64,000 nt of DNA from Saprospiraceae bacterium (lineage in GTDB: Bacteria > Bacteroidota > Bacteroidia > Chitinophagales > Saprospiraceae): assembly GCA_027488855.1 (NCBI GenBank), contig JAIYAV010000095.1, forward strand, positions 1 to 64,000, written 5' to 3'. Made by a program: the position numbers and the translations under genes. Below the pieces are notes generated by a model. The model saw only the letters and a program-made list of their open reading frames with translations. It did not search any database and was not told where the DNA came from. Below are positions 35,829 through 58,438 of this stretch, piece after piece. The first letter of the stretch is position 1. Every line of letters begins with the position of its first letter.

Positions 35829-35860
35829 AAAAAAACAGCCCAAGGAGAGCTCCTTGGGCC
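35829..35860 (-). terminator. Strong intrinsic terminator after the giant surface-protein gene
   Basis: GCCCAAGGA (35838-35846) pairs with TCCTTGGGC (35851-35859). On the minus strand the stem is followed by TGTTTTTTTTTG, an excellent U-tract. It lies 31 nt past the stop of the 15-kb gene and is the only clear terminator of the 21-kb surface locus. Confidence 0.85.
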
Positions 35861-35889
35861 GTTTAATGTGCAATGAGACTTTATAAACC

Positions 35890-38800
35890 TTAACGGTTCA
35901 ACAGAATCATCTTCTTGGTATCGGTAAAGTCAGCGGTTTCGAGGGTGTAGTACAACACCCCGCTGGCTCTCAAATCAGCTTGCTTCAGGATCACCTTGTT
36001 TTCCCCTTTGACATAATTGCCCTCCAGGCGGTACACCAAACTTCCTTTGGTATCGCGGATGGTCAATGTGCCTTTGGCGGCCTTCGGCAGATAGAACCCG
36101 ATGAGGGTTTCATCCTGGAAGGGGTTGGGCGTATTCTGGCGCAGTACAGCAAGGTCTTGAGTGACATCGGCACCAAAGCTGAGCTTGACACCGATGGACT
36201 CATTTTGCTTATCGTAAGCTTCGGCAGGAGTGAGGCGGCTGCTGATGTTCAGCACTTCGCTCAATTTCACTCCCGTTTTGGCTTTCAATTTCAAGGTGAA
36301 CAGTAACTCGTTGCCAGCGGCATTGAGGGTACTGCCGAGGTTCCAGCTGGTGGTGATGGCACCTTTGTCCTTGAAGATTCCAAAGTTATCCGCCTTGGCT
36401 ATTCCGTACTCAATGCCTTCCAACTCAACGGCATTCAGGTCATAGTTCAGTGTGAACTGGTAACCCTGAATGTTTTGCAAGTCTTTGGCACGGATGGCAA
36501 TATTGTATTGAGTGTTGGCCTTCATGGCTACTTCTTCCGCGTTCAACAGCATCGTGCGGTCGGTACGGATTTCGGTAGCAGCTAGACCAGTGGTGGTTGC
36601 GGCATTGCCATTGACATCACCCATTTTGACTGCGATGAAGTCGGCTTTGACATTACCAACCAGGTCATTGACATTGACTACCTCTGGATACTCAGCCGTG
36701 AATGGGTTTTGAGCATCTGGGAACTTGTAGGTCGCATCAATGAATTTCCAGCTAGGTACATTGTTGAACTTGGTATCAATTTGCAGGATCAACTTGCGAA
36801 TCTGGATCATGTCCAGGGTACTGATCGACTTGGAGTTGTTGACATCAGCAGCAATCATGCGGTATGCGCCTTCCAGCGGCTTCACCCCTAGGATGTGCTT
36901 TTGAATCAAAACAAGGTCGAAAGTAGATACCCCGTTGAGGTGATCCTTATCCAATTGAGCACTTACACTGAAGTCACTTCCTTTCACCAGCGAGTTGAAG
37001 GTGAAGGTACCTACTGCAGGAGTATTGTACTTCATGGTTGCGGCACCACTCAGGTCGACTTGTACACCCAAGACTGGTTCAGCTTCGTCGGTGGTGATCA
37101 AACCAGAGATGCTACCCAGGTCTACATTGCCCGAACCACCGCAAACTTTACGGTTGTCCTGTACTTCAATGTAGGTTACACAGAAGTCGTGGTTACCCGC
37201 ATTGTCCCAGGCGTGCAATTCAACCAGGATGTTTTTGCCCGCGTCAGCACAAGTAAGCGGCAAGCTAGTCTGCGCCTCAAGCACTGGGCTACCCACCCGG
37301 TTGATGGAGTACTTGGTGACCAGTTTTGCACCTGCTGCATTGGTTTCGGTACCTTGGCCGTTGCAATCGTAGATTTTGGAAGCTACGAAGTCACTAGCCC
37401 ACACGGTCATCATGCCAGCACCTGCGCCATTAGGCATCAATTCGGTACTCAAACCATTGATACAAATCGGAGCCGGAGCCTTACAGTCTTCGACGGTGAA
37501 AGGAATCCGAGTAGGCTCACTCAGGTTACCACACTCGTCACGAACCACCACGATCAGGTCATGTTTGCCTTGTGGCAAGTTGCTGACGTTGATCTCGAAC
37601 TGGCCACCCGCCAATGCTTTGGTACTCCAGCGAGGAGTAGCGTAGAAAATCATGCTGCCTGCATTCCGAGTTTGGAACGGAGCAATCATCAAGTATTGGG
37701 TTTCGAGGGTCACTTCGTTGCTGCAGTTGTCCTTACCTGTAACGATCATTTTGATGTTGGCCAGGCAATCGCCACCTTCGCGGATGCAGAACTTGGCTGG
37801 ATCAGCGGTTACGACTGGTTTCACTTCGTCGTATACCTTGATGATCTGGGTATACATGAAGGAGTGGTAGAACTCACCCACGGGCAAACCATAAGGATTG
37901 TCGCGGAAAGCATCTGCGCAGAATGGAGGCACAAAGGCTTCATCGTTACCAGAAAGCACTTTGCCATCACTGAGTGTAATTGTTGGGACTTCATCCACAG
38001 TCTCGTCCAAAGACAGGTAGAACTCTTCACGTTGGTTTCTGTCTTTGTCGCGCACCAGCACATAGATTGGCTTTTTGCCGTATTCGTTGTAAGCACGATC
38101 AACCACATAAACGCTGCCTTGCTGCATTGGATCACCACAACGATCATCGTAAGCACACCAGTCGATGACGGTGTAGGTACGGAAGATTTTGTAGCACTCT
38201 GTATCAGAAGCATCGTAGCGCTTATCACTAACGTTGACTGCGAGGATGTCACAACCCAACTCTTTAACGAAGGCGGTATCGATCACAGGTACTTTGCAGT
38301 CGCGTTGATCTACGTCTTTAGGGAAGCAGATGTTGTATTCGCGAACCGGTAGCACCCGGATGATTTGTTTGCAAGTCGTGGTGATTGGTCCCTTCGCCGT
38401 TTGTTTGGTCAATACCCAAATCCGCTCAATGGTACCAGCGCCACACTTCAAGCGTTTCACCGTACTGTATGCGGTATCTGCTTGGATACAAACTGCACCG
38501 CTGTTGATGATGACATCACCAAACACTCTGGCTGATTTTACTCTATCGTCAATAAACTCGAGGTTCTTATCATTGCAATAGATGCTAACTTCCCAAGGAG
38601 CAAGACATTGAATTGGCGTTTTGTCGTCCACTTGGATGTTGTTCCAGCAGTAGTTGCGGTTGCCAAATTTGTCCTGAGCCCAAAGTTCAACCATCAGCGC
38701 ACTTCCATCACAGCAGAAGAACGGAATGGTATCCATCAATGGCGTCATGATCATGCCCGATCCATTACCAGCCGCTGGTGGGTTCTTCGTGAAGTATTCA

Positions 38801-41800
38801 CCAATGGTAAAGTATTCTTCGATTTGCGGAGTGCCGTTGCTATTGAGGTCGATGTAATCGTAATCGTCGGCTTTGCCATTTTTATTCAGGTCAAGCAGCC
38901 CTTTAGAAGGATCATAAGGATCAAGCTTGCCATTCTTATTGGCGTCGACCACCCGTGGGAATTTCAATATAGTCGCAACACAGGCATCGCTTACCGGACG
39001 GCGTACTTTTACCCACATCAACTTACAGTTGTCCCAGCTCCCTTCATCCAGGTCTTTGGCTGCAACAAATCCGTTACCCTGATTATCGAGGGTAATGTTC
39101 AATTTGTCGTCGCACTTCGCTACTGGTGAAATCTTGTCGACGATACGGATAGGCAGCCAAACCAGGCTATCCTGATAACATGCATCGTAAACCCGTACTT
39201 CTACGAACCAGTCGCCCTGGATTGGCACTCCAGATACGGTGTAACCTTTCGTACAGTCACCAGTTACTTTTACACCTGGATCAGTTTTCAGTACGAATAC
39301 ACCTGTGGGCCGCTCATCCAAGTCAAGGATGGCTACACGTTCAACTACGCGGATTTCGTAGCACCAATCGCTTTGCTCAATTACATTGAAGCTGGAGCGG
39401 TTGAATACAAATCCACCTGTACAATCCATTGGGCCAGTAGAGTATTCCAGTACGTCATCTGGATCGTAAGTTGCAGTAGCTGTTTTTGGATTGGCTTGAG
39501 GGGCACCAGTATAGGCACCTACCTTACCATCTTTATCAACATCCAGTGCAGTAATGATTGGTCTTTCGCTGTCACCTACGATGATGGTTTGTTGCCAGGT
39601 ATAGCGGCCACTATTCCAGTTACTTTCAGCGTAGCAATCGTTGCCGGTTGCTGGCTGGATCAAGTAGTTTGGATAGGCAGTTCCGGTTCCATAGCACCAG
39701 TCGAAGATTGACCAGGTACGGATGATCTTCTTGCCACACAAGCCTTGGCCAGTAGCGAAGGAAACTTCATCCGTGTAGTTGAAGGCAAAACCACAGTAGT
39801 CTTTACCAGTGATGAAAACCTTCTTACCGGCACCGTTGATGTAGTAAGGCACACTCTCAGCGATGTTGTATTTTTTACCTGCCAAATCAGCGGGTAGAAT
39901 CAAATTATCACCTTTCGCTTTGTCATTCGGCACCTCTATCTTACACAAAGGCAATTTGATGACCGGACGATAGATGTTGATCAACTGGCTGCAATTTGCC
40001 TTGTTGCCCATCAAATCTATGAAACTGAAGGTACGGCGAATCTGAGCGTAAAGGTATCCTTGAGCAGCAGATGCGTTGCAATCAGCAAAGTACTGAATTT
40101 CGTCCTTAACGTTCTCCAGTCTTGGCGCACCACAAGCATCCGTAGCCGTAGCCTTACCTGTATAGTAAGCATACAAGCTGTCATTCGAGGATCTGGCCAC
40201 GTTGTAGATGCTGTCCACATCTGAGCATACAAAAGTGTAGGTACCAACGATCTGGTTCTTCGAGTTCAACTTGCGGGAAGTATTCGGCGGACAAGTCACT
40301 ACTGGTGGAATCTTGTCTACAAAGGTGATTGGGCCCCAGATTATATTACAATGGTTGGCGACACTTCTCACTTTGTAAATCAAGGTACGATCACGGTATT
40401 TCTTCACGTCAAATGGAACCCGATCTACCGAAGCCCAAAGGGTTTCTTCTGTCCACTTGTCCTGAATGATTACCCGGTAGTAACTACCCATTGGGTATTT
40501 GTCAAAACCACAAGCTGCGATGAAATTGGGCACCAGCAAATCTGCATTTACTACAGCTTCACAGTTGGCATCCAATGCAATTTGGAATTCTTTGTAACCG
40601 CTGTTCCACTTCGTCTTGATCCAGCAAGAGTCGTTCATGATGGCTTTGTCATCCTCATCCAAATACTTATCCCGACCAGTTACGTTTGGTGAAACGAAAG
40701 GTGGTCTGTAGTCCCCTTTCAATCCACGATCAGCAACCATACCCTCGAAGAGGATACCGTCACCACCAGCAGGATAGGTCAAACCAGCCATTGGCATTGG
40801 ATCGTCGTACTCGTCAGTAGAGTCGAATACTACGATAGATTTGCCAAAGCGTGGGTGGAAGAAGCGGAAGTCAGTCAATGGCCGCTTGTTGCCATTTGAT
40901 TTGTCGAAACCAATTGCACGTGCAGTCACAGAGGCAGACAACATCCATGGATAAGCCGCATTCTTGGTTGGGTCAATTTCGAATTCAATTTGTACGCACA
41001 AGATTGAATCACCACGCAGCAAGAAGTTGGCATTTTCAGAAGTTGGCAACAACAACTTGGTATCAGTAGTACCATTGTAGTTGGGGTTGACCCTCAGCAA
41101 GTCCTTCGGCTTAGCGTTAACCGCAGATTTGAAGTTAACCAGTGAAGATTTTCTGATCTTCTGATGTGGCAAATTGGTCACAAACGCACTATCAACAATG
41201 GTCACAATTGGCTTGGAAGCCGTGTACAATGCTGGGCCATATGCATTCAACAGGTTGAAGAACATCTGGAAGCTATCGAGTGGCACTTCTTGTGGGTTTT
41301 TTACACACAAGTGCGTAATTACGTTGAAGTTGCCGCAAATCTGGCTGGTTGGGAAGTTCACCCCAACGATGTCCATACTTGCTTCTACGTTTGGCTCGTC
41401 AACCCAACCAAAGTCTACCGTCTTGTCCCACTGATTGTCAGGGAAGAAGGCTGGAGTAAATGGATTGGCATTGTCGTCAGCGTCACGTTTGCCGTTTTCA
41501 ATGGCATCATTGGCCCGCAATTCGGCACCAGAACCACCTTCACGTGCATCATTGATCGGGTTCGGCGCGGCGAACAGCGGACGATCATTGACACAAACTT
41601 CAGGTTGGCGGCTGTTGCCATCGGTGATTTTGACAAAAGCACCAGGGCCACGACTTGTACCACCAACGCCAGAGGTTCTGCCATCGCTATCCTGGCCATC
41701 GCTTACTCCTGGGTTGTCCTGGAGGGTCACCACCCGGTGTTTCGGCCAGGCATTCACAAAGCTCGCACTGTCGGTTGCGAAGTATTTCATTGGCAACACG

Positions 41801-44800
41801 TAGTAGACACCAGGGATCAAACCGCGGAAGGAATACAATCCGCTGTCAGCTGCTGGAGAAATACCAGTTTTTACCAGTGCACCAGGAGCATAAGTACCCA
41901 CTCCCGGAGGAGCAATGGTACGGTTGTACAAGATATCCGTTACAGTACCCAATGAAGCGAGGCTGGTCTGGTAACCCACGGTGTCAAATGCACCGGTAGT
42001 ACCATTTACACCACCCCAAATCAGTACAAGGTGCAACGAGTCTACCACATCTTCGCGGGTATCCTGATCACCAAACACATCGTGATCAAACCAAGCTAGG
42101 TTGCCAATTTTGCCCACTGGAATCGCGTAATCTTCCACTTCCCCTTGTGGGTATGGGTATCTTCCGGTATTGCCAGCAGCATCAGTCCAGTTGGCAGGAG
42201 GCGCCAAGATTGGGCCCAATGGCAAGTTATTTTCAAATGACTTCACATAAGGTGACACAGTCATGTGGAAAATATTGTTGTCGGTGCCCAAACCATTCGG
42301 GAATGAAGTGGGGAACTGTGCTGCATAGTTGGTCCAACCCAGGCGGAAACGCATGAAGATGGTACCAGAGTCGAATACAGCGGTAGTTGGTACTCGGAAG
42401 GCCAGGATGGTACTGTCTACACCATTGGTACCTGTAGCAGGCAAAGTAGCCGTGCGGGTAGGTGCACCGAGTGCTGGTACCAAATTGGTCGAGAACGGTG
42501 CAGTTGTAGAAACAGATTGGTGCGTAAATTCAAGCTTTTCAGCTGGAAGATCCATCACACCGTTGCCGTTCCAGTCCATAAAGCCATCGAGGTACGCAGT
42601 TTTGTTGACATAGCCACCATTGGTGGTATCCTGCGAAGTATAGTTGACTTTGATGTAGGCGTATTCACCGGGGAGCAGTGGAGAAAGCAGGCGAACACCT
42701 GTTTCATCATCCACAGTTACACCTTTTTTGAAGGCACCCTGGTCGTCGTCATCACCACCGGCTTTGCTGCCTGCATCTGCATCTGGCTTGCCGTTTAGTT
42801 CACCATCTACACCTTTACCCAAGTAGAGGCGAGGCTGGATGGCGTGGCGTGGGCCAAATTTACCACTGAACAAGGCGTTCATCGAATCGCGCAGGGTCAG
42901 GTATTTTGAACCAGGCAGAATAGCGGTGATCGGCAGATCGCCATAATCAAATCCAGTGTAACCAAAGTCGCGGGTTTCGTCGTATTGGTTGTCCGGGAAG
43001 TTGTTCAATGCATCAGCAGAAGGTGGTCGATTGTTACCAGCCACTAAACCACCCACATCATTGCGTGGTGCATTTTCATCCAGACACAACATCATCGGGT
43101 TGGTGATGGTGAAGGTGTCGGTAGTAATGCGGTTGTCAATCAACAGGTCGTCGCCATTGCTATTGTCATCAATGCAAGAATCGTCAGACAGATCAGGATT
43201 GTTGAACGTAGCGGTCATTCCTGCCGGGTCAGACACGATGATTTGGTAAACCGGGTTGGGAATACCAGAAGGATCAACATTGCCAATCAAGCCACAGAAG
43301 TAGTAGCGGCCATTGGCATCAGTGGTATCGTGATAAGTATATTCGTAAAGGTCACCAGTATTCAATTTGCCATCCAAACCAGCGAATTGCAGTTTGATTG
43401 GAACATTTTTGATGCCTGGTTCGAGTACATCCTGATAGCCATCATAATCGCGGTCTTCAAAGACGGTGTTACCCACTTTGGACAACGAAATGAAGTAATC
43501 TTCTACCTCACCGTAAGGAATAATGCCACCAGGAACCTGAGTTGTGCCTGCACCCGGTTGAGGATCAGGGAAGTTGAGGTTTGGTGCCAAAATGCCGTTT
43601 GGTCCGAGGCGTGGATCGAAGCTAATGCGGAAACGAGACAAAATATTGCCATTGTTGTAAGCCACATTCGCAGGAACTTTGAAGCTCAAGCGTACCGAAT
43701 CACCCACAAACTTCAAGAAGCTCATCTCCAGTTTAACCGCCTGGGTATTGGCTTCCAATACGATTGGGTTGCCATTCAGGTGGGTGAAAATGATGTGTTC
43801 GTTGGAATCAATTTTGCCAGCGCCGTCATCAAAGTTACCGTCGCCGTTCCAGTCAAACCAAGCGTGCAGGTATGCATCCGGGCCGTCCAGGTTGATTTTG
43901 GCGTGGTACTTTACGGTAATTTGAGCCTCATAACCAGCAATCATTGGCGTCACAAAGCGGATACCATCTTCATCATCACCACAAGCATTGGCAGCATTGT
44001 GGAATGGCCAACGGCGACCTTGTGAAGGATCGTATGGGAAGTTGGGATAATTGCTAAAGTCCGCAATTGGATCATCTCCCAAGCTATCACGACCTGGTTT
44101 GAATTCAGCACCAGCATCCTGATCAGGTTGTCCCAGCCATTCTACATCCTGGCAGTTACCCAAACGTAGATCTGGAGTAACGATGTGCTTTGGACCTTCT
44201 GGTTTGGTACCGTTTTCAGTGGTAATGAAGTTGGTATTGGAAGGATCACCAGCTGGAATGTTAGTGCTTTCAGCTAGGTCGCCCAAATCCAAACCGACAT
44301 AACCAAAGTCGATGCGTTGTTCTACCCGCTCATCTGGTAATCCATCAACTGCGTTTGGATCGAGCAGTTGGGGGTTGCTTTGATCGAGGATACCTTCTTC
44401 GTCAGTGCCAATTTGGTCAATCTTGAGCTTGAACATTTGGCTCTTCGACTGTCTGCGGTCGCCACTTAGATACGCCCAAGGATTTTTAAGCGGTTTGCCA
44501 TCGCTATCGAGATCTTCTTCGGTTACATTTTTAATGTAGTCAAAACGAGTAGGCGTAAGGCCAAAAGTATCGATAGCGATGATCTGGTAAACACCTTCAA
44601 TCATACCCGTAAAGCCGTACAAACCTTTAGCATCGGTATAGGTCTGCAAGACTGAATCCTGGATGAAGTCTCGGGATGTACTTCCATCTATAAGCGGTGT
44701 ATTTGGGTTCTGAGCAGTGTTTTGTGTAACGGAGTCACAACGACCAGTGATTGGATCTACCCCACCAAAGCGCAATACTACGCGGACATTCTGGATGCCC

Positions 44801-50800: not shown

Positions 50801-50955
50801 GTTTGAGCCTGGAGGCTGTTGAATAGGAAGCTGATCCCAAACAAAGCCAATAGCGCTTTACCAAAAAACAAAGACAGTTTGCTTGGCTTAGGTGAAAAAG
50901 CTGTAGCAAACAAATCCCTAAAAGCATTGCTGCTAAGGTGTAAGGGTTTTTTCAT
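35890..50955 (-). CDS. Giant (~5,021 aa) T9SS-sorted multidomain surface protein
   Basis: This 15-kb gene encodes a secreted giant. A long signal region (SLFFGKALLALFGISFLFNSLQAQ) is followed by Ig-like segments and a BNR/YCF48-like propeller (~420-675: repeated VYVGTxNGLxIS). After PKD/Ig-like modules come a DNRLRE-like segment (~1090-1280) and six GEVED modules (~1280-2940, each ending GEVED[YFT]). Three SdrD-type modules (GNLVWEDRNNNGLQD and two relatives) are interleaved. HYR-like modules with D..PV..C follow (~3550-4500). The end has a CNA-B-like plus dockerin part (VNNSKSISTLDMIQIRKLIL), a cohesin-like domain (~4810-4910) and a T9SS type A sorting domain (NTPNPFQDETLIGFYLP to KKMILLNR). 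I chose the ATG at 50955; one at 50991 is possible. Confidence 0.85.
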   Translation of the reverse strand: MKKPLHLSSNAFRDLFATAFSPKPSKLSLFFGKALLALFGISFLFNSLQAQTISTGSINPTQYCPGAAIAIPFTVDTFCLPAACLGNFAGNNTGPQNITYQAQLSNSSGGFGAGTTNLGTIVSQVGSNKAAISPLTINTTVPAGLPYSFQYRIRVLKIAPNAVVNGGPNANGNLTFGLLITANYPNPLGPFCVGDPISVPYTVNCPFNGPNQFQLQISPSPGNTWTTFASVGATGNGTINGNIPDVRTGTYKLRIRSTDPADVFSLESGNFEVRSGRLMTMKPANSIYCQGELLDLTYIFNNAEVINAPNTYTIQLSNTNFAANTLLSPNNTITIGRLVSAAKSGSILAVIPYDVGGTGYKIRIHASNGPLDGCEYGPYTIPSIRPNFTDPLSQFVCTGSALNLSTNSGWNSYAWQKICSPPFKNITAGLGNPATPTSFSIAKNGNNVYVGTGNGISISRDGGVTFTETELGTLLVKHVYVEGPRVYASTSQGIYLSSDNGGTFSANPGTIFDTGDGIPVLNVNVSAAQPGGAIVFAGTSNGLSRSVNSGGAFSTIFTDPVSSIFISGSTIYVGTANGLKISYDDGFSFPVTVGAGAGLLPSMNVTAVFAKDGVIYAGTDNGLAISTNGGIDWTTYTAFNSGLADDGITAIGVSNNLIYVGTTKGLSVSNLGVKNTPNGDYFTTITVGLASNVINALVAEPDGVSTTDNDVFLATLGGVGTNTFTLTDNLGNTNTFSVNPVTPADSWCRFQVKVQNNTCFLTSSQAQVADIPPNITSVTKVDPTQCGGSNGTITLSGLVANTKYQLNFTGPSAASAIPKSSDTVTTSATGQILISLIAAGNYSLSVSSLIVAPGQVDSCNSNVVTITVLDPPAPSTVTANAVPQVCQGANIVVTLTSVLGANERYMWYTDPAGTVPANPAFSLTSSYSPATPPSASGTLYVRKRNTVTLCNSAALTPVSYTVNLSPQITHSKVEPTTASSTDGSITIKMSSDPGSAPYLLQYTLPDGVTIVQVSGLTYAQLAAPTGYTIPALGVGNYTNISVTSMAGCQSNVVLSCPLLGPPPPDVTSTIGLKTVKCDIPGVAGGYFQQAYEDVCASDNLVDESVGSIAVGRIRQTKTDPFNNERVEMRGYVQFDISSYVPKNATIEKIEYRPKSLTGGFQAVCDVDVVHGSLSATGDIQFDITDVAPKYYGNFIGFDPNIFDDLGGAKYNDFTIGADATGQYTNLGAQGVADAQTRLAQDGVLRLGLRLSGTDFDLPVYQFHGIVFAPSAEHTLCITYTMRDFGDLPEPKFATDLAGGLVGPSHGMDSLDIDPRPTVTNIQPAMFIGTTPPDAEGDAFPSVLAEGDDNNNINDENINRGWFTNAATADSLIAGNSITMTFPVTNNLDTVANVIVFVDWNNNGVFENSTERYSTTVDSGTHTVVFNLAIPIFATGNIGVRVRMTSGAVFDAYGPAPDGEVEDYMLQGVAGFDYGDLPDVAAGTGTGNYETIYNINGSRGPRHRIDNRLKIGNTIDAEADGQPQANAFGDDINGIDDEDGVTQPDSIIRGKPAVFKVFVTNNTTANAYLMGFADWNDDGSFEDASPNQKSGPITIPAGGSGYYNVIFNVPVLPNPLPERVATRFRLSNESVAVQLSTGPVQGVTTDILGEVEDTYVTIVGYDWGDLAEPRYITDKQGGQPGPSHKIVPIIVTTPVLDTLHALYIGATPPDPELEGQPNQPATGDDTNTFDDEDLSPNNFLNPVTLLPYPLIATDSTVFRIPVTNNYTGKTATLWAFIDWNGDGQFNGVTETYQRPVSANFTGNINLGIRIPNIATSDSIGVRIRITSGNILNAYGQAPDGEVEDFMVELRGAEYGDLPDATAGTGNNDYQTRRVYNGPRHGVPVTPLVFIGKVIDTEADGQPTERATGDDNNQIPDDEDGIIFLGPLVPGSTAQLSFSGTNNTLDTAHLHIWADWNSDGILEYVDSVKVAPTTTVIGQVVNFDVPANATFAGGKVYFRFRFTTDVPFNAAPKPNGSAADGEVEDYFLPIFRLGNLVWEDRNNNGLQDAEEINLGIQNVRVVLRFGGVDPITGRCDSVTQNTAQNPNTPLIDGSTSRDFIQDSVLQTYTDAKGLYGFTGMIEGVYQIIAIDTFGLTPTRFDYIKNVTEEDLDSDGKPLKNPWAYLSGDRRQSKSQMFKLKIDQIGTDEEGILDQSNPQLLDPNAVDGLPDERVEQRIDFGYVGLDLGDLAESTNIPAGDPSNTNFITTENGTKPEGPKHIVTPDLRLGNCQDVEWLGQPDQDAGAEFKPGRDSLGDDPIADFSNYPNFPYDPSQGRRWPFHNAANACGDDEDGIRFVTPMIAGYEAQITVKYHAKINLDGPDAYLHAWFDWNGDGNFDDGAGKIDSNEHIIFTHLNGNPIVLEANTQAVKLEMSFLKFVGDSVRLSFKVPANVAYNNGNILSRFRISFDPRLGPNGILAPNLNFPDPQPGAGTTQVPGGIIPYGEVEDYFISLSKVGNTVFEDRDYDGYQDVLEPGIKNVPIKLQFAGLDGKLNTGDLYEYTYHDTTDANGRYYFCGLIGNVDPSGIPNPVYQIIVSDPAGMTATFNNPDLSDDSCIDDNSNGDDLLIDNRITTDTFTITNPMMLCLDENAPRNDVGGLVAGNNRPPSADALNNFPDNQYDETRDFGYTGFDYGDLPITAILPGSKYLTLRDSMNALFSGKFGPRHAIQPRLYLGKGVDGELNGKPDADAGSKAGGDDDDQGAFKKGVTVDDETGVRLLSPLLPGEYAYIKVNYTSQDTTNGGYVNKTAYLDGFMDWNGNGVMDLPAEKLEFTHQSVSTTAPFSTNLVPALGAPTRTATLPATGTNGVDSTILAFRVPTTAVFDSGTIFMRFRLGWTNYAAQFPTSFPNGLGTDNNIFHMTVSPYVKSFENNLPLGPILAPPANWTDAAGNTGRYPYPQGEVEDYAIPVGKIGNLAWFDHDVFGDQDTREDVVDSLHLVLIWGGVNGTTGAFDTVGYQTSLASLGTVTDILYNRTIAPPGVGTYAPGALVKTGISPAADSGLYSFRGLIPGVYYVLPMKYFATDSASFVNAWPKHRVVTLQDNPGVSDGQDSDGRTSGVGGTSRGPGAFVKITDGNSRQPEVCVNDRPLFAAPNPINDAREGGSGAELRANDAIENGKRDADDNANPFTPAFFPDNQWDKTVDFGWVDEPNVEASMDIVGVNFPTSQICGNFNVITHLCVKNPQEVPLDSFQMFFNLLNAYGPALYTASKPIVTIVDSAFVTNLPHQKIRKSSLVNFKSAVNAKPKDLLRVNPNYNGTTDTKLLLPTSENANFLLRGDSILCVQIEFEIDPTKNAAYPWMLSASVTARAIGFDKSNGNKRPLTDFRFFHPRFGKSIVVFDSTDEYDDPMPMAGLTYPAGGDGILFEGMVADRGLKGDYRPPFVSPNVTGRDKYLDEDDKAIMNDSCWIKTKWNSGYKEFQIALDANCEAVVNADLLVPNFIAACGFDKYPMGSYYRVIIQDKWTEETLWASVDRVPFDVKKYRDRTLIYKVRSVANHCNIIWGPITFVDKIPPVVTCPPNTSRKLNSKNQIVGTYTFVCSDVDSIYNVARSSNDSLYAYYTGKATATDACGAPRLENVKDEIQYFADCNASAAQGYLYAQIRRTFSFIDLMGNKANCSQLINIYRPVIKLPLCKIEVPNDKAKGDNLILPADLAGKKYNIAESVPYYINGAGKKVFITGKDYCGFAFNYTDEVSFATGQGLCGKKIIRTWSIFDWCYGTGTAYPNYLIQPATGNDCYAESNWNSGRYTWQQTIIVGDSERPIITALDVDKDGKVGAYTGAPQANPKTATATYDPDDVLEYSTGPMDCTGGFVFNRSSFNVIEQSDWCYEIRVVERVAILDLDERPTGVFVLKTDPGVKVTGDCTKGYTVSGVPIQGDWFVEVRVYDACYQDSLVWLPIRIVDKISPVAKCDDKLNITLDNQGNGFVAAKDLDEGSWDNCKLMWVKVRRPVSDACVATILKFPRVVDANKNGKLDPYDPSKGLLDLNKNGKADDYDYIDLNSNGTPQIEEYFTIGEYFTKNPPAAGNGSGMIMTPLMDTIPFFCCDGSALMVELWAQDKFGNRNYCWNNIQVDDKTPIQCLAPWEVSIYCNDKNLEFIDDRVKSARVFGDVIINSGAVCIQADTAYSTVKRLKCGAGTIERIWVLTKQTAKGPITTTCKQIIRVLPVREYNICFPKDVDQRDCKVPVIDTAFVKELGCDILAVNVSDKRYDASDTECYKIFRTYTVIDWCAYDDRCGDPMQQGSVYVVDRAYNEYGKKPIYVLVRDKDRNQREEFYLSLDETVDEVPTITLSDGKVLSGNDEAFVPPFCADAFRDNPYGLPVGEFYHSFMYTQIIKVYDEVKPVVTADPAKFCIREGGDCLANIKMIVTGKDNCSNEVTLETQYLMIAPFQTRNAGSMIFYATPRWSTKALAGGQFEINVSNLPQGKHDLIVVVRDECGNLSEPTRIPFTVEDCKAPAPICINGLSTELMPNGAGAGMMTVWASDFVASKIYDCNGQGTETNAAGAKLVTKYSINRVGSPVLEAQTSLPLTCADAGKNILVELHAWDNAGNHDFCVTYIEVQDNRKVCGGSGNVDLGSISGLITTDEAEPVLGVQVDLSGAATMKYNTPAVGTFTFNSLVKGSDFSVSAQLDKDHLNGVSTFDLVLIQKHILGVKPLEGAYRMIAADVNNSKSISTLDMIQIRKLILQIDTKFNNVPSWKFIDATYKFPDAQNPFTAEYPEVVNVNDLVGNVKADFIAVKMGDVNGNAATTTGLAATEIRTDRTMLLNAEEVAMKANTQYNIAIRAKDLQNIQGYQFTLNYDLNAVELEGIEYGIAKADNFGIFKDKGAITTSWNLGSTLNAAGNELLFTLKLKAKTGVKLSEVLNISSRLTPAEAYDKQNESIGVKLSFGADVTQDLAVLRQNTPNPFQDETLIGFYLPKAAKGTLTIRDTKGSLVYRLEGNYVKGENKVILKQADLRASGVLYYTLETADFTDTKKMILLNR

Positions 50956-51015
50956 GAGATAGAGATTATTATGATCAGGTCGCATAAACAATTTGATTCT
51001 TCAACCCACTGATGA

Positions 51016-52869
51016 TTAGTGGTTTGATTTTATTCTTTGGTCAATCAGTTTCCACTGTTCCTTAAATGCGGGGTCGCGTCGCATTTTTTTCAGGGTAGTA
51101 ACTGGATCATTGAACAAGGCTTGTAGTTCTGGTGCTTGTGACAAATCTGCACCTTGTTGCTTCAACTGAGCCGCTAATTTGCCATAAAAATCTTTAAAAA
51201 CACCCGCTTGAGAATCGACCAATTGATCGAATTCGGCGTTTCTTAAAGCTTCATCAGCTGTTTCACCAGGTGTGGTATAAAAAGAAGGAACAGCAGCCAA
51301 TGGGCTATCCGGGCGCAAAGAGCCTTTTCCTTCCAGATAGGCGATGATGTTGTCAATCTTCTGGGAAGCTTCTTCTACTTTGGGTGCCAGATCGTTTTTG
51401 TTCAAGCCGACGCCAATTTTTACCACATTGAGTGGTTTGTCGGTGGCGGATTCCCAAGCTACTCCAACTACATTCTGGTATTCTGCGGCACTTACTTCTG
51501 AAGGGCGCTTTGCAATACCCATCCCATCGTTGTTACCCGAAGCCAGAATATAATCACCAACCTCTACTTTTCCCATTACCCGCACGGGTACCTGACCCAT
51601 GAAGGCTACTTTTTCAAAGTTCTGTTCTTTGCCCGGTTGTGGGGCGTTGCCCAGTACAATTGGGCGACTGGAAACAACCATTACATGATCGGCATCCTGG
51701 GTATTGAGGGAAACGATACCTCCTTTTACCCCAATGATTTCACCAAATTGCAAATCGCGTGATTTGGCGTCGCGCTCCAGCCACTCGGCATAATCGCCGG
51801 CACCAGATGCGTATTCTACGCCGATTTCTTCGTGTATTTTGGTCGACCAGGTGATGGCTTCAGCCAGCAAAGCAGCCGCTTCAATCCCTACGGTGATGGC
51901 TTTCGCGGTAGTGGCAATCCCCGCAGCCAAAAAACCTGGGGATGCAAAAGAAAAAATGACCGTAACCCCGGCAGCAGTGGCAGCGGCATAAAGACCAGCT
52001 GCCATTCCAACGGTGGCGACTACGGAAGTAGCCAGAGAGGCTCCCCTAAGGGCAAAAAGAGCGACCTGCAATTGGTATTCCCAAGTAGCTTCCAATTCAG
52101 CGGTGGTTTGGCCCTGGATTTCTCCCCATTTGTCGACGTCATCGGCAAAGGTGACAAAGTTATTGTCATTGCTGCGTGATCCGTTAACCTTGATGTAGAT
52201 GCCCTGTTTGCTCCCGGTAACGAGGAGAGGGTAATTGTCCATGTTCTGATCCGATCCGGTATTGCGGCCGTAAATTTGCAATTGACCTCCACTGGTGACA
52301 ATAGCATTGGTGAGGTTATTGGTTTTGAATACCAGATTTCTGGCATCGCGGGTACCCACAAAGTGAGTGGGTGGTAACGTATTGGTATTGCCGCCCGTAT
52401 GCCAGTAGATGGACTGGTTTTTTTCCAGCGACTGGTCTTGTTCCAGCACTTGGGAAGCAGTTTCTGCATGGAACGCATAAGGTACAGCTTGCAGTTGGGT
52501 GCTGTTTTTGAGATTAAAGCGCTGGCTTCCTGTAGAGTTCATCTCCACATCCAACCAGATTTTTTTGCTTGCCCAAGGAATGGCGCTAATTTGACCGGAA
52601 CGTTCCGAACCTTCACCGACCACAAACGCAAAAACACCAAGCTCGTTGGTGGTCACCTGATGTGTTTCAGTGTAGTAGGTATCTGGATTGTCGTTTTTGT
52701 TGGTAAACGAGACTTTTATGTTGATAGGCAGATTGGCTAGAACCTGACCAGTTGCATCATAGGCTACCGCCTGGTAGTTCATCCCGCGGGTTGATCCAGA
52801 TTGGGTTTGTGCAAAGCAGGTAAAGCACCAACCCATCACTAGTAATAAAAATAAGCTCAACTTTTTCAT
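51016..52869 (-). CDS. Secreted fibre-like protein, tandem paralogue 3
   Basis: This protein of 617 aa has a signal peptide (MKKLSLFLLLVMGWCFTCFAQ) and the Bacteroidota fibre-type N-terminus: GMNYQAVAYDATGQVLANLP, then YYTETHQVTTNELGVFAF and TQLQAVPYAFHAETASQ (to ~130). A GGNTNTLPPTHFVGTRD element follows (~160). Residues ~270-343 form an Ala/Gly-rich hydrophobic stretch. Next is GAGDYAEWLERDA (~355), then FGEIIGVKGGIVSLNT and VAFMGQVPVRVMG, which recall the peptidase G2/IMC chaperone domain of tail fibres (loose resemblance only). A conserved helical tail of ~75 residues closes it. It has no T9SS domain. It is one of three tandem paralogues upstream of the giant gene (60 nt). Confidence 0.75.
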   Translation of the reverse strand: MKKLSLFLLLVMGWCFTCFAQTQSGSTRGMNYQAVAYDATGQVLANLPINIKVSFTNKNDNPDTYYTETHQVTTNELGVFAFVVGEGSERSGQISAIPWASKKIWLDVEMNSTGSQRFNLKNSTQLQAVPYAFHAETASQVLEQDQSLEKNQSIYWHTGGNTNTLPPTHFVGTRDARNLVFKTNNLTNAIVTSGGQLQIYGRNTGSDQNMDNYPLLVTGSKQGIYIKVNGSRSNDNNFVTFADDVDKWGEIQGQTTAELEATWEYQLQVALFALRGASLATSVVATVGMAAGLYAAATAAGVTVIFSFASPGFLAAGIATTAKAITVGIEAAALLAEAITWSTKIHEEIGVEYASGAGDYAEWLERDAKSRDLQFGEIIGVKGGIVSLNTQDADHVMVVSSRPIVLGNAPQPGKEQNFEKVAFMGQVPVRVMGKVEVGDYILASGNNDGMGIAKRPSEVSAAEYQNVVGVAWESATDKPLNVVKIGVGLNKNDLAPKVEEASQKIDNIIAYLEGKGSLRPDSPLAAVPSFYTTPGETADEALRNAEFDQLVDSQAGVFKDFYGKLAAQLKQQGADLSQAPELQALFNDPVTTLKKMRRDPAFKEQWKLIDQRIKSNH

Positions 52870-52894
52870 GCCAATTTATTTATCGCCCCTTACG

Positions 52895-54709
52895 TTATTT
52901 TTTGGGCTTTATTTTTTGATCAATCATTGCCCACTGGGTAATGAAATTCGGATCGCGACGAACCTGTTTGATGATCGGAAGGGGGTTTTCAAAAAACTCA
53001 ATCAGCTTTGGATAGGCATTGATGTCGATGCCCTGTTCTTGCAGATTGATTTTCACCCGGGAATACATCTCTTTGATCATGGGCTCGTTTTGCTCCATCA
53101 TGGCGTCAAACTCTTCGTCGCTGAGTTGTTTCTGCAAGGTAGTTTGAAAATTTTGGAGCGCCGCTGAAGTCGCGAATGCCGGATCACCTGCAACCAATGG
53201 ATTTTGACCTTTCAAATACCCCCTGATGTTGCTTACTTTTTTCTCTAGCAATTCAACCTGGCCACTGAGCTCATTTGAGCCAATGCCAATGGCTACATTG
53301 ACATAATTGATGGGTGCATCTTCAGCTGCTTCCCAAGCAACCCCTACAATTCTTCGGTAATCACCAATTTTCATCAGTTTAGGATGAATGGCTATACCAT
53401 AACCATCGTTGTTGCCAGAAGGGATGATGTAATCGCCAATGGCTACGGGTCCGGCAACTTTTACTTTTACCTGACCCATAAAGGCAACTTTCTCAAATTT
53501 CGACTTGAGTTCAGCTTTGGGCATGTTACCAACAATACCTGGCTTACTGGATACCACCCGAAAATGATCGGCTTCACTGGTATTCAGGGAGATTTTTCCT
53601 CCTTTCACACCTACAATTTGCCCAAAACGCATTTTGGGCTCCTCTTCCATTCTTTCTAACCATTCGGCGTAATCCGCTGCCCCGGTAGAATAGGTGACCC
53701 CAATTTCTTCCCGTATTTTCGTGTTGTACACAATCGATTGAGCCAATAAAGCAGCCCCTTTAGCAAGAAAAGCAACAGAAAGTGCAACTGAACCGATCGC
53801 GGCACCGGCTCCAAATCCAGAAGCAGCCCCACCGGCCGCCATGGCAATTTGTTCAGCCGCCTGGGCTATTAATGAAGCCCCTTGTAACACAAAAAGTGAA
53901 GTTTGTAGTTTGTATTCCCAGGTATCTTCTAGTTCTGACACGGTTTGACCTTCTACTGCGCCCCACCATTGGGTATTGACGTCGTCGGCAAAAGTCATAA
54001 AGTTGTTGGATCCGTCACGGGAACCAGTTACCTTGATGTATATGCCCTGGTTGCTGCCCTGGATCAGCACCGGATAGTTGTCCTTGTTGTCTTCAGCTCC
54101 ACTCACCCCACTCTTTACGCGCATTTGCCCTTCTTTGGTCAGGATGACCCGGGTGGTGTTGCTGGTTTTGAGGTAAAGATCCTTATTGTCGCGGGTTCCC
54201 AGAAAATGAGTGGCTGGAGAAGTATTGGTGTTGCCACCAGTGGTCCAATAGATGGACTGGTTTTTTTCAGTAGGTTCATCCGTTTGTGGCGCCAGAGTGG
54301 ACGCACTCAAAGCATGCATGGCATAAGGTACGGCCATGAAGCGGTTGTGACTGAGTACGTTGAATGCCTTATCCTTGTCCCCGGCCATTTCCACTTTCAA
54401 CCAAAACTGCTCTTTTGACCAGGGAATATCGGCAAGCGCACCGCTTTGTTGTTCACCTTTTCCAATAACCACCGTGAAGAGACCTTGTTCGTTGGTCATT
54501 ACCGTTTGTTGTTCGGAATAATGAATTTTTTGCCCGGTCTCATCTCCAGCAATGGCGATTTTTAAAGCAATTGGGACATTGACAAGCGGTTGGTTGAAAG
54601 AATTGCGGGCAACTGCCTGGTAATGGATGCCTTGAGTGGTTTCTTGTGCTTGCAGTTGCAGTACAGTACCAACCAAGACAAACATTGACAACAGTAAATA
54701 TTTTTTCAT
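52895..54709 (-). CDS. Secreted fibre-like protein, tandem paralogue 2
   Basis: This 604-aa paralogue has the same order of parts: signal (MKKYLLLSMFVLVGTVLQLQAQ), GIHYQAVARNSFNQPLVNVP, SVPYA-type end of the first domain (FMAVPYAMHALSAST), IYWTTGGNTNTSPATHFLGT, hydrophobic Ala/Gly stretch (AAGGAASGFGAGAAIGSVAL), GAADYAEWLERMEEEPK, VAFMGQVKVKVAG and helical tail DEEFDAMMEQNEPM. I moved the start from 54730 to the ATG at 54709, which begins the signal peptide. Divergence from its neighbours is substantial, so the duplication is not recent. Function unknown. Confidence 0.75.
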   Translation of the reverse strand: MKKYLLLSMFVLVGTVLQLQAQETTQGIHYQAVARNSFNQPLVNVPIALKIAIAGDETGQKIHYSEQQTVMTNEQGLFTVVIGKGEQQSGALADIPWSKEQFWLKVEMAGDKDKAFNVLSHNRFMAVPYAMHALSASTLAPQTDEPTEKNQSIYWTTGGNTNTSPATHFLGTRDNKDLYLKTSNTTRVILTKEGQMRVKSGVSGAEDNKDNYPVLIQGSNQGIYIKVTGSRDGSNNFMTFADDVNTQWWGAVEGQTVSELEDTWEYKLQTSLFVLQGASLIAQAAEQIAMAAGGAASGFGAGAAIGSVALSVAFLAKGAALLAQSIVYNTKIREEIGVTYSTGAADYAEWLERMEEEPKMRFGQIVGVKGGKISLNTSEADHFRVVSSKPGIVGNMPKAELKSKFEKVAFMGQVKVKVAGPVAIGDYIIPSGNNDGYGIAIHPKLMKIGDYRRIVGVAWEAAEDAPINYVNVAIGIGSNELSGQVELLEKKVSNIRGYLKGQNPLVAGDPAFATSAALQNFQTTLQKQLSDEEFDAMMEQNEPMIKEMYSRVKINLQEQGIDINAYPKLIEFFENPLPIIKQVRRDPNFITQWAMIDQKIKPKK

Positions 54710-54774
54710 GATGTATGATTTAGAAATCACTTTTGCAAATCAATCGGGAAGGATTCAATTGAACCAAATGCCCC

Positions 54775-56574
54775 TTACTTTCTGGACTTCAGCTGTTGAT
54801 CCACCAACGCCCAGTTGGTCAAGTAGGCAGGATTTCTCCGGATGGCTTTCATCGAAGGAATCGGGTTATCCAGAAATTCTGCTACTTGGGGAAAAGTTGC
54901 CAGGTCGTAACCCTGGTTTTGCAATTCGATTTTGGCTTTGGCATAAATGTCTTTGATCAACATTTGATGCTGATCTACGAATTGATCAAACTCTTCATCG
55001 GTCAAGGCTTTTTGGAAAGCTGTCTGCGGCTTGACGACCTGAGTTGCAGGGGCGGTTTGCCCTTCCTCAAGCAGGGGTGCTTTACCTTCCAGATAAGCCA
55101 TGATGTTTTCGATGTTCCGGTTGAGTTCATCCACTTTGCCACTCAAATCATTGGTGTTGATGCCAACTGCTACATTCACAAAATTGATGGGTCGGTCGGG
55201 GGCTTCTTGCCAGGCTACTCCTACTGAACGGGCATAATCACCTGCTTTCATGTTTTTTGGGTGGATGGCTACGCCAAATCCGTCGTTGTTGCCCGATGCA
55301 ATGATGAAGTCGCCAATTGCAACTGCTCCGGCTACTTTCACCGGAACCTGTCCCATAAAGGATATTTTTTCGAAATTTGCTTTTTGGTCTTCTTGAGGCG
55401 CGTTACCAATTACGGCAGGACGCTTGGATACCACCAGGATATGATCGGCTTCGGCGGTGTTGAGTGACACCAAACCACCGCGCACTCCCACAATTTCAGC
55501 ATAATCTATGTCTCTTTCGCCTGCTTTTCTTGGTAGCCATTCGGCGTAATCACCCGCTCCCGTAGCATAACTTACCCCGATATCTTCTCTGATTTTTGCG
55601 GCCCAGGTGATGGATTGTGCCAACAGTGCAGCAACTTCAGCGACTTTGCCAGCGATGCCAGCAAACTCGGCAACTGCAGCACCTACACCAAATACTGAAA
55701 CCGCATAACCCGTTGCTTCTACGAACATCCCCGCGATTTCGGCAGCTAAACCTACACCTTGTAGTGCAAATAGCGCAACCTGGAGTTGGTACTCCCAGGT
55801 TTGTTCCAATTCCGAAAAGGTTTCTCCTTCAATGCGTCCCCATACCGCAATGTCGTCGGCAAAGGTGACGAAATTGTTGGAGTTGTTTCTGGAACCAATC
55901 ACCTTAATATATATACCCTGTAGGCTACCGTCAATGGTCATCGGGTAGTTGGCGAAGTTGTCGTCAGTACCCGTTACTCGAGCAGTCAAATGGGTTTGAC
56001 CGATGGGTTTAAAGGTAAGGAGGGTTTGGTTATTGGTTTTGACCACTACATTTTTATTGTCTCTGCTACCAAGGAAGTGTGTAGGAGGTAAAGTGCTGGT
56101 ATTTCCGCCAGTGGTCCAATAGATGGATTGATTTTTTTCAGTAGCAATTTCTTCCGTCAGTTTAGAGGTGGTCGCAGCGTGCAAAGCATAAGGCACCGAC
56201 AACAATTGAGTCCGGCTGTTGATTTTGAGCGCACGGTTTTGGTCTCCCAACACCTGCACATCCAGCCAGATTTGTTCTTTACCCCAAGGAACCAACTTAA
56301 TGATCCCTATTTTGTTCTGGCCTTCACCAATCACCAGGCTAACCTGGCCAGCGAAATCAGTATTCACCTGATGCGTTTCGCTATAATAAGCTTCAATGTC
56401 CTTATTTTCGGATACTAGCGCAATTTTGATGCTTACAGGGGTATTCGCCAGGACTTTGCCTGCAGCATCTCGAACTACAGCTTGATAACTGATGCCTTCT
56501 GTCCCAGATTGGGCAAATGTGGAGAGTATCCCCAGGCTACAGAACACTATTAAGGTGAGTAAACTTTTTTTCAT
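54775..56574 (-). CDS. Secreted fibre-like protein, tandem paralogue 1
   Basis: This 599-aa paralogue starts MKKSLLTLIVFCSLGILSTFAQ, continues GISYQAVVRDAAGKVLANTP and has RTQLLSVPYALHAATTS. It shares IYWTTGGNTSTLPPTHFLGS, the hydrophobic stretch (AAEIAGMFVEATGYAVSVFG and on), GAGDYAEWLPRKAGERD, ISFMGQVPVKVAG and the tail LTDEEFDQFVDQHQM. It is 65 nt upstream of paralogue 2 on the same strand, and 61 nt downstream of the small T9SS protein gene. The three copies share all blocks in the same order. Function unknown. Confidence 0.75.
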   Translation of the reverse strand: MKKSLLTLIVFCSLGILSTFAQSGTEGISYQAVVRDAAGKVLANTPVSIKIALVSENKDIEAYYSETHQVNTDFAGQVSLVIGEGQNKIGIIKLVPWGKEQIWLDVQVLGDQNRALKINSRTQLLSVPYALHAATTSKLTEEIATEKNQSIYWTTGGNTSTLPPTHFLGSRDNKNVVVKTNNQTLLTFKPIGQTHLTARVTGTDDNFANYPMTIDGSLQGIYIKVIGSRNNSNNFVTFADDIAVWGRIEGETFSELEQTWEYQLQVALFALQGVGLAAEIAGMFVEATGYAVSVFGVGAAVAEFAGIAGKVAEVAALLAQSITWAAKIREDIGVSYATGAGDYAEWLPRKAGERDIDYAEIVGVRGGLVSLNTAEADHILVVSKRPAVIGNAPQEDQKANFEKISFMGQVPVKVAGAVAIGDFIIASGNNDGFGVAIHPKNMKAGDYARSVGVAWQEAPDRPINFVNVAVGINTNDLSGKVDELNRNIENIMAYLEGKAPLLEEGQTAPATQVVKPQTAFQKALTDEEFDQFVDQHQMLIKDIYAKAKIELQNQGYDLATFPQVAEFLDNPIPSMKAIRRNPAYLTNWALVDQQLKSRK

Positions 56575-56635
56575 TGTCTAGAGTATTGAAGCATTAATCG
56601 TACAGTGTCGCACTGGACGAAAATCAAGCGCGTGA

Positions 56636-57127
56636 CTACAATTTTACAACTTTATGATTCTGAATGGGGGAGTTCCCTGCTTGCCGAAGCGATAAAAAGT
56701 AGATACCAGCGGGGTACACACTCATGTCGATTTCAGCTTTGCCATTCACTTTCAGGTCTTTGATCAACACCCTTCCTTGAGCATCTACCAGGTTGGCCAG
56801 GTACAGCTCTGGTTTGCTGGATAGTGCAACCAGGTTCAACATTTCCCGAACAGGGTTGGGGACAATTTGAACCCACTGTTCACCCTTAGCAGCCAAGAGG
56901 CTCACTTGTAGTTGGGGTTGATGAAAACCCTCGGTAACGGAAGTTTTATTGTCCGTCGATTGCCATCTTGAAACAGCTACTTCTCCAAGTGTCCAACTCA
57001 AACCTCCACCCTGACCTAGAATGGTGTTGCCCGCATTGCCCAGTACCTGAGGTGAAAGGGATTGGGCAGATATACACATGCTGGTGATTAAAAGGATGCT
57101 GCAAAAGAAAAATTTCATCAGCCTCAT
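56636..57127 (-). CDS. Small secreted protein with a T9SS sorting domain
   Basis: This protein of 163 aa has a signal peptide (FFFCSILLITSMCISAQ), a short globular part with the Bacteroidota pattern GGLSWTLGEVAVSRW and TEGFHQPQLQV, and a C-terminal T9SS type A sorting domain (VQIVPNPVREMLNLVA to YFLSLRQAGNSP...KVVKL). It would be secreted and attached to the surface. It is the first gene of the 21-kb surface locus. A second in-frame ATG at 57118 (MKFFF) is an equally possible start. Confidence 0.8.
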   Translation of the reverse strand: MRLMKFFFCSILLITSMCISAQSLSPQVLGNAGNTILGQGGGLSWTLGEVAVSRWQSTDNKTSVTEGFHQPQLQVSLLAAKGEQWVQIVPNPVREMLNLVALSSKPELYLANLVDAQGRVLIKDLKVNGKAEIDMSVYPAGIYFLSLRQAGNSPIQNHKVVKL

Positions 57128-57737
57128 AGATTTGTATTTTGCAAAAGACCAACAAGCCCTTTAGTCCCAATTGTGGGAACACTGGTTGAAGTCTTTTTGT
57201 GTAAGCAAATGGAAAAACGATTAACTTTTAAGGAAGAAGAGAAAAAAGAGATGAACGCATTTTTTGTTAAGAAAGGTACCACATATACAAGCAGATAAAA
57301 AGAAGCAGAGTCAACACAGGAGGACTGTATTGAATCGTAATAAGGAGAGCACAAATCAAAAGACTTGTAAAATCTATTCATGAGATACCGATTTATAAAA
57401 AAAGCGTTGATATAAAAAACATTGAAACTAAAGTCGTTACAACTTTAGTGATTAGATTCAGTGTTTGAAATCGAACGATTGCAAAAAAAATCACACACTG
57501 GTCGTCTCTGAACAGCAATCAGTTCCTAAGAGTAGCATTCAAGGTAGTAAAGAAGAAATTCCTTGCGAAGATAAGCTAAACCCGAATATGTAGTATCTAG
57601 ATGTAGCCTTTTTTTTATTTCATGTAGTTTATTTGTTTCAAATATTGGCTGTGTTTATTTTGTTAGATCGTCGGCGTATTTTTTGTTTCTTTAATAAAAA
57701 ATAAAATAATATTCACTCGGCCTCATTTTTTAAATGT
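57128..57737. other. AT-rich intergenic region upstream of the surface locus
   Basis: No convincing gene lies in these 610 bp; the ORFs of 78 and 85 aa look like chance. A hairpin ACTAAAGT-7 nt-ACTTTAGT is at 57427-57449. The promoter of the surface locus (minus strand) should be in the part near 57130-57300, but I could not identify it. The stretch 57600-57737 is very AT-rich and follows the response-regulator stop. Confidence 0.45.
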
Positions 57738-58433
57738 TCAATCCACAATGAATTGATAGCCTACACCTTTCAATGTAATGATCTGTACCCGCTCATCCTC
57801 GCGCAGATAATCGCGCAGACGAGTAATGTACACATCGAGATTCCGGGAGTTAAAAAAAGAATCATCGCCCCAGATTTGTTGCATGATCACCTTGCGTTCT
57901 ACCGTAAAATTGCGATGATCGGCGAGGATTTTGAGTAGCTCCGCTTCGCGGTGGGAGAGTTTGCGAATCTGAGCCTGAAACCTCAGTTCGTACTTGCGCA
58001 AATCAAAATCGTATTTTCCCAAATGAATGACCCCGTTTTGCTCTCCCCCACTGTCATTTGGATTTTGCCCACTCAAGTTGAGCAAATTGTGGATGCGGGC
58101 AATCAATTCTTCCATACTGAAGGGTTTGCGGATGTAATCATTCCCACCAGCGGTGAAGCCTTTCAGGACATCTTCCGTTTGTGTTTTGGCAGTCAGAAAA
58201 ATAATGGGTAGGGTAGGGAAGCGTTGGCGAATGTCAGCCCCCAATTCATACCCATTGCGATTGGGCAACATCACATCGAGCAGGCAAATATCAGGTAAGA
58301 AGGTATCAAAAACGGCCATGACCTCGGCACCGTCACCAACCATCTGGACTTCAAATCCCCGACTTTCGAGGCTTTCCTGGACAATTTTGCCCAAAAACAG
58401 CTCATCTTCTACGTAGAGTACTTTTGTTGCCAT
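57738..58433 (-). CDS. OmpR/PhoB-family response regulator
   Basis: This protein of 231 aa has a receiver domain with phosphoacceptor D53 (in CLLDVMLPN), acidic pocket E9/D10, T81 and K103 (YIRKPFS), and a winged-helix DNA-binding domain (LSHREAELLKILADHRN to VYITRLRDYLREDERVQIITLKGVGYQF). It acts with the histidine kinase encoded upstream on the same strand. The kinase and regulator are 116 nt apart, separated by a long palindrome. Targets are not visible, though the divergent GLPGLI gene and the surface locus are near. Confidence 0.92.
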   Translation of the reverse strand: MATKVLYVEDELFLGKIVQESLESRGFEVQMVGDGAEVMAVFDTFLPDICLLDVMLPNRNGYELGADIRQRFPTLPIIFLTAKTQTEDVLKGFTAGGNDYIRKPFSMEELIARIHNLLNLSGQNPNDSGGEQNGVIHLGKYDFDLRKYELRFQAQIRKLSHREAELLKILADHRNFTVERKVIMQQIWGDDSFFNSRNLDVYITRLRDYLREDERVQIITLKGVGYQFIVD

Positions 58434-58438
58434 ATTTG

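Follow-up and report, generated by a model that had tools for sequence, protein, structure and literature searches.

A small T9SS protein encoded beside MAT-type fibres in Bacteroidota: a candidate surface adhesive system at a five-gene Saprospiraceae locus

Introduction

Which genes of a compact surface locus belong together, and how could fibre-like proteins with a signal peptide and no sorting domain reach, or stay on, the surface of a bacterium that possesses a type IX secretion system (T9SS)? Both questions are raised by a locus in a Saprospiraceae bacterium (assembly GCA_027488855.1), within the first 64,000 nucleotides of contig JAIYAV010000095.1 (hereafter the window). An initial annotation read this locus as a single assembly, in which a giant and a small protein are anchored at the surface and three fibre-like proteins are their partners. 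Below, the window's own genome is called G000 and the other genomes of the same genus G001 to G004; the nearest genomes to that of the window are Haliscomenobacter relatives.

Organization of the locus

The locus consists of five co-directional genes on the minus strand (35890-57127), which encode proteins of 163, 599, 604, 617, and 5,021 aa and are followed by an intrinsic terminator:

56636-57127, minus strand: small protein of T9SS type A, 163 aa; sorting domain preceded by a short mature domain
54775-56574, minus strand: fibre F1, 599 aa; N-domain related to that of the Bdellovibrio mosaic adhesive trimers (MAT), hereafter MAT-N, and G2-like chaperone
52895-54709, minus strand: fibre F2, 604 aa, counted from ATG; MAT-N and Peptidase_G2
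51016-52869, minus strand: fibre F3, 617 aa; MAT-N, with Peptidase_G2 below the cut-off on its own
35890-50955, minus strand: giant, 5,021 aa, counted from ATG
35833-35864, minus strand: intrinsic terminator after the giant; 14-pair stem and T run

From the small gene through F1, F2, and F3 to the giant, the intergenic gaps measure 61, 65, 25, and 60 nt; an alternative start of F2 is possible at a GTG (54730). In the region scanned, no other minus-strand candidate comes near the terminator (35864-35833) in strength, and a scan of the gaps between the five genes found none of comparable strength. No Rfam match was obtained in the leader or in the gaps. With one strand, short gaps, and no internal terminator, the five genes thus have the layout of an operon, although its order is not kept in relatives: the giant comes first in G002, G003, and G004.

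The sorting domain of the small protein scored 33.3 bits with PF18962 (cut-off 27) and 34.8 bits with TIGR04183 (cut-off 23), while that of the giant lies barely above the TIGR04183 cut-off (23.8 bits against 23). No sorting domain was matched in F1, F2, or F3 with Pfam and NCBIfam profiles. The window's genome also encodes the T9SS translocon protein SprA (2343.8 bits, cut-off 200). These profile matches support the assignment of the small protein and the giant as T9SS cargo. The structure model of the small protein is confident for the sorting domain only and not for the mature part. When coordinates were re-derived, the initial annotation proved correct on layout (five genes on one strand, gaps of 25-65 nt, a single strong terminator), on sorting domains, confined to the first and last proteins, and on the three middle proteins, which have a signal peptide and, by the same profiles, no such domain.

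The locus is flanked on one side by a two-component system and LptD, and on the other by respiratory complex I genes. The response regulator and histidine kinase genes (57738-60103) lie on the same strand directly upstream, the same pair precedes the giant in G002 and G004, and a G001 contig carries both genes as well; this pair is a candidate regulator of the locus.

Fibres with a MAT-type N-domain and a phage-type chaperone

The three fibres are paralogues (50-52% pairwise identity) and, by family alignment A2, the only MAT-N proteins encoded in the genome. With the NCBIfam model, a fourth, weak match was seen on contig C361 of G000 (L182 5285-6505), in a protein of 406 aa with no adjoining small-family gene. 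Their domains are placed as follows:

56170-56574, minus strand: F1 signal peptide and MAT-N
54305-54709, minus strand: F2 signal peptide and MAT-N; modelled strands at residues 28-123
52456-52869, minus strand: F3 signal peptide and MAT-N
55135-55578, minus strand: F1 G2-like chaperone, putatively self-cleaving; predicted cut before D342
53258-53701, minus strand: F2 G2-like chaperone; predicted cut before D346
51379-51822, minus strand: F3 G2-like chaperone; predicted cut before D359

A typical signal peptide, with Ala-Gln as its last residues, opens each fibre. Residues 22-135 then match the NCBIfam family Bdello_MAT_N (NF053851) at 33-39 bits, below the curated cut-off of 60. This family is matched by all 16 members of A2, yet in F1-F3 only about 75 of its 162 positions align and the scores stay under the cut-off. 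The structure model of F2 is poor overall (pLDDT 46, and below 50 in the middle region) and shows the strands of the MAT-N domain at residues 28-123. An Ala-rich helix pair precedes a DYAEWL motif in the window's fibres, and Pfam detected no S74 domain in them.

At the C-terminal end, Peptidase_G2 (PF11962) was found by Pfam in F2 (28.9 bits, cut-off 25), with F1 (12.9) and F3 (20.4) both below the cut-off. Across the fibre family, 11 of 14 domains match Peptidase_G2 at E 0.01, and the predicted catalytic Asp and Glu of the DYAE motif (D-x-x-E) are invariant in 14/14 G2-like domains. When a profile of these 14 domains was compared with solved structures, tailspike Dpo31 and the phi29 preneck appendage were matched. 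F2 alone had no match in the PDB at E <= 0.001, with a weak match to phi29 gp12 (prob 0.97, E 0.016), and it matched preneck appendage proteins of a viral library at about E 1e-5. The chain of 3gqh starts at the residue aligned with the Asp of DYAEWL, and the Glu three residues further on falls on a Glu that is Gln in 3suc; we take 3gqh to be the product of self-cleavage and 3suc a cleavage-dead mutant. From this alignment, we infer that the chaperone of F1-F3 would cut itself off before the Asp of DYAEWL.

A small T9SS gene beside MAT-N fibres across the phylum

A search for the neighbours of the paralogues' homologues, proposed with the initial annotation, was run and returned the small T9SS protein beside the fibre as the phylum-wide constant. 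Among 248 Bacteroidota genomes, 71 encode MAT-N. Neighbours were counted at the 29 top-scoring MAT-N loci outside the window's genome (8 families; weaker MAT-N relatives may differ), and in all 29 of these genomes a small T9SS-family gene adjoins the fibre gene. It lies upstream in 24 (median gap 10 nt) and downstream in 5; four seeming exceptions fell among the latter once longer sequence was examined, the small gene proving to be downstream. One of the five, G146, has a short ORF between fibre and small gene, which is probably a piece of a split fibre gene. By a rough estimate, the chance of such a neighbour is about 0.0015 per locus.

A similar association was obtained in the 61 nearer genomes, where 65 of 83 small-domain matches have a MAT-N match on their own strand at no more than 4 kb (53 of them being upstream of it), and the two domains co-occur by genome (Fisher p = 2e-9). 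In other families of the order, a small-family gene is usually found directly beside the MAT-N gene. MAT-N genes with a G2 domain and with other C-termini occur in the same gene order, as expected of an exchangeable tip, and the pairing holds with or without the G2 domain. Since it is constant whatever the C-terminus, the small gene follows the conserved MAT end of the fibre and not its variable tip.

The pairing is not reciprocal in every case: among relatives, 62 of 133 MAT-N matches have no small-domain match within 4 kb, and G037 and G048 contain MAT-N gene arrays with no small partner. Those of G037 (L112, L113) are tandem genes for short MAT-N proteins, mostly of 320-400 aa. No natural fusion of the small and MAT domains in one polypeptide was found.

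The genus also has a second small-fibre type (L084, L088, L099), with a fibre of 773-806 aa, in G002 (at 2.84 Mb), G003 (C25), and G004 (C319), in each case with no giant beside it; none was detected in G000. Elsewhere, a PorP/SprF-like gene, from a family linked to T9SS, was seen by eye after the fibre and small genes of G196 and G138 (L184 6833-8283, L185 7296-8743). In G017, a hybrid two-component regulator with an AraC-type HTH stands ahead of each of two cassettes (L086, L095).

The robust unit is therefore the small T9SS protein with its fibre, and not the fibres with the giant. This gene pair is a more important and more general finding than the five-gene locus itself.

The giant as a genus-level companion

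The giant is divided into two parts:

47206-50955, minus strand: hypervariable N-terminal part, residues 1-1250, from identity comparison
35890-47205, minus strand: conserved part with GEVED repeats, SdrD B-like domains, a cohesin-like domain, and the T9SS tail

Relative to G004, identity is mostly 31-74% over residues 1-1250 and 90-99% over most of the C-terminal half. Between G002 and G004 the N-terminus differs just as much, and its identity is low between other genomes as well. Because the T9SS tail is C-terminal, the variable part would be distal. Comparison with solved structures gave one marginal sequence match only (E 0.005, an EF-hand protein), and no structure match supports for the giant a grappling-hook-like role as in ixotrophic Saprospiraceae.

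Of the five genomes of the genus, four (G000, G002, G003, G004) have a cassette next to the orthologous giant, and the order in G002, G003, and G004 is giant, small, fibre, fibre. In G003, the two are still together among unrelated flanking genes. In the fragmented G001, the leader stands directly before the giant, and a small-fibre-fibre set is on another contig. Between giant and small gene, a hairpin with no T run was seen in G004 (C276; L075 17705-17803) and G002 (400716-400813), with what seem by eye to be compensating changes between the two.

Other members of this T9SS family in G000 (C327, C297, C302, C361) are 52-62% identical to the window's giant in the C-terminal part. No cassette was present beside the paralogues C297 and C327 in the contig stretches examined (both 5' ends lie beyond the contigs), nor within 38 kb around the giant paralogue of G002 (2.72 Mb). 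The giant is thus a companion shared only within the genus. In G018, G027, and G046, cassettes adjoin other large T9SS-tailed proteins of different make-up; a companion of this kind at the surface may be a looser theme.

An inserted cassette explains the gene order of the window

The order of the window can be traced to the edges of one segment:

57373-57737, minus strand: ancestral leader and promoter region of the giant, now ahead of the cassette, from alignment to G004 and G002
57377-57387, minus strand: left copy of TATCTCATGAA, the start-codon context of the giant left at the insertion edge
50962-57376, minus strand: inserted segment of about 6.4 kb with the cassette; in G001, G002, and G004 the leader is not separated from the giant by such a segment
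50951-50961, minus strand: right copy of TATCTCATGAA, containing the ATG of the giant at 50955

Window positions 57373-57737 align with G004 52723-53089 and with G002 385639-386003, both directly before the giant. Within this leader, a 21-nt block, TTGCTGTTCAGAGACGACCAG (57498-57518), is single copy in each of G000, G001, G002, and G004 and has no Rfam match. The 11-nt repeat TATCTCATGAA is present at the end of the leader and again at the start of the giant; with this context at both edges, about 6.4 kb was inserted between the two. The leader of the giant now stands ahead of the cassette, which makes co-transcription likely.

After the giant, the window continues directly into the sequence that follows the G004 cassette, and the downstream cassette is absent. 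The window's fibres are at best about 53-56% identical to those of G004 and G002, while the G002 and G004 cassettes are 75-81% identical to each other and the flanking genes of window and G004 mostly 93-98%. The window's cassette is so much more divergent than its flanks that it is not the old cassette moved, and a divergent cassette was likely acquired and the old one lost. In the fibre tree, type a of the relatives is joined by F1 and F2, and their type b by F3, some forks being open. Joint replacement of the cassette and the giant's tip was also considered, and was ruled out as a special event by the equal divergence of the G002 and G004 N-termini, which differ even though their cassettes are 75-81% identical.

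Proposed mechanism and alternatives

We propose, with a probability of roughly 0.55, that the locus specifies a surface adhesive system: the small protein would serve the fibres' MAT domain as an anchor or as an export partner, and the giant would be a genus-specific companion. F1-F3 would be secreted fibres, trimeric by analogy, each with its MAT-type domain proximal to the cell, followed by a middle segment with the Ala-rich helical pair. The phage-type G2 chaperone at the C-terminus would assist trimer folding and then release itself by a cut ahead of the Asp in SG(A/S)GDYAEWL, leaving the helical segment displayed as the tip. The adhesin role of such fibres is presumed from their domain homologies. 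The small protein, encoded just ahead of them, would be the dedicated partner of the MAT domain: it would leave by T9SS, shed its sorting tail, and remain on the surface, where it would either anchor the fibre or have carried it out. The small gene follows the MAT domain through changes of tip, order, and neighbourhood, so that serving this domain is the most economical reading; adjacency is not binding, and a direct contact of the two is presumed. The giant would be an adhesin in its own right, exported by T9SS and bearing a variable tip; in this genus its gene accompanies the cassette, and the two are probably expressed together.

The initial annotation's idea in a stronger form, with a single operon yielding an obligate assembly of giant, small protein, and fibres, appears unlikely. 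It agrees with the T9SS cargo at both ends and the fibre-like middles, with a cassette adjoining the giant in G000, G002, G003, and G004 (in G003 amid unrelated flanks), with the likely co-transcription in the window, where the leader once private to the giant has gone to the cassette, and with the large T9SS proteins of other make-up beside cassettes in G018, G027, and G046. However, the order is reversed in relatives, the examined stretches around giant paralogues (C297, C327, G002) contain no cassette, the second small-fibre type of the genus has no giant alongside, and neither do most small-fibre pairs in the phylum. The cargo, the fibres, and the adjacency thus stand, while fibres and giant as the core unit do not, the small-fibre pair being the constant. 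Nor does the window's order look like an artefact. With 422 contigs in the assembly and giants belonging to repetitive families, a cassette truly located after the giant, as in relatives, could be misplaced; but the cassette is a different one from that of G004 by its identity relative to the flanks, both junctions lie inside an 83.6-kb contig, with leader and start codon clean and single-copy, and the sequence at the downstream junction corresponds to what follows the cassette in G004. An assembly error is accordingly very improbable.

As for the small protein, export could be its sole role, the fibre leaving through T9SS only in complex with it. The complete lack of sorting domains in the fibres would be explained in this way, and the small gene is usually first, with gaps of a few nt, but the idea is doubtful, even if less so than the obligate assembly, and no precedent was found in the literature searched. 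Bdellovibrio is not known to possess T9SS and nevertheless exports its MAT fibres. The surface location of these fibres has been described (PMC10769870). Anchor and export adaptor are not told apart by sequence, and the proposed system accommodates both. The relationship of the C-terminal domain to phage preneck appendage and tailspike chaperones could, in turn, point to a domesticated phage tail or to part of a tailocin or contractile injection system. Signal peptides, though, would send the fibres to the periplasm or beyond, the flanks consist of the two-component system, LptD, and complex I genes, and no sheath, baseplate, or capsid gene was detected among the flanking genes tested, which leaves such an origin with hardly any probability.

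More broadly, and tentatively, the pair may represent an undescribed two-part fibre system present across the phylum, in which a tiny T9SS-delivered protein docks or exports MAT-type fibres; fibre cassettes would pass between lineages and could sit before or after a companion adhesin. According to the paper that named the MAT fibres, the conserved N-domain must bind an as yet unidentified surface element (PMC10769870). The conserved neighbour of this domain across the phylum is a direct candidate for that element in Bacteroidota. If true, this would tell, for Bacteroidota, by what the MAT N-domain is fastened to the cell, a question still open, and it would show how proteins lacking a T9SS signal get to the surface of T9SS bacteria or are retained there. 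The gene pairing makes it possible that the small protein is a surface anchor for fibres like those by which predatory bacteria hold their prey.

Comparison with known systems

The initial annotation knew of no described system with this composition. This stands for the pairing with a small T9SS protein, of which no description was found in the open literature searched (subscription papers being outside its scope), and not for the fibres, which have known relatives in Bdellovibrio MAT fibres and phage preneck appendages.

With type A cargo of T9SS (Por_Secre_tail, PF18962, TIGR04183), the small protein and the giant share the C-terminal sorting domain. Unlike such cargo in general, the small protein keeps only about 60-65 residues once its tail is removed, and it goes with one kind of neighbour. 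The giant has the size and domain make-up (GEVED, SdrD B-like) of other giant adhesin-like T9SS proteins of Saprospiraceae, with paralogues in the same genome, but only for this orthologue was a neighbouring fibre cassette found.

The chaperones of phage preneck appendages and tailspikes (PF11962; phi29 gp12, PDB 3gqh, 6qz9; Dpo31, PDB 28nb) share with F1-F3 the DYAE/DFAE motif that opens the domain and a second conserved block further along. In contrast to these, the window's fibres add a helical C-terminal tail of roughly 100 residues and are products of host genes with a signal peptide, and their self-cleavage is predicted.

Another likeness in architecture is to the MAT fibres of Bdellovibrio bacteriovorus (PMC10769870; NF053851), long fibre-like proteins with an exchangeable C-terminus and several paralogues, whose conserved N domain, beta-rich as predicted for F2, comes directly after the signal peptide. 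F1-F3 differ in scoring below the NCBIfam cut-off and in having a chaperone of the G2 and not the S74 type. They further differ in the small T9SS protein encoded alongside, an arrangement not expected in Bdellovibrio.
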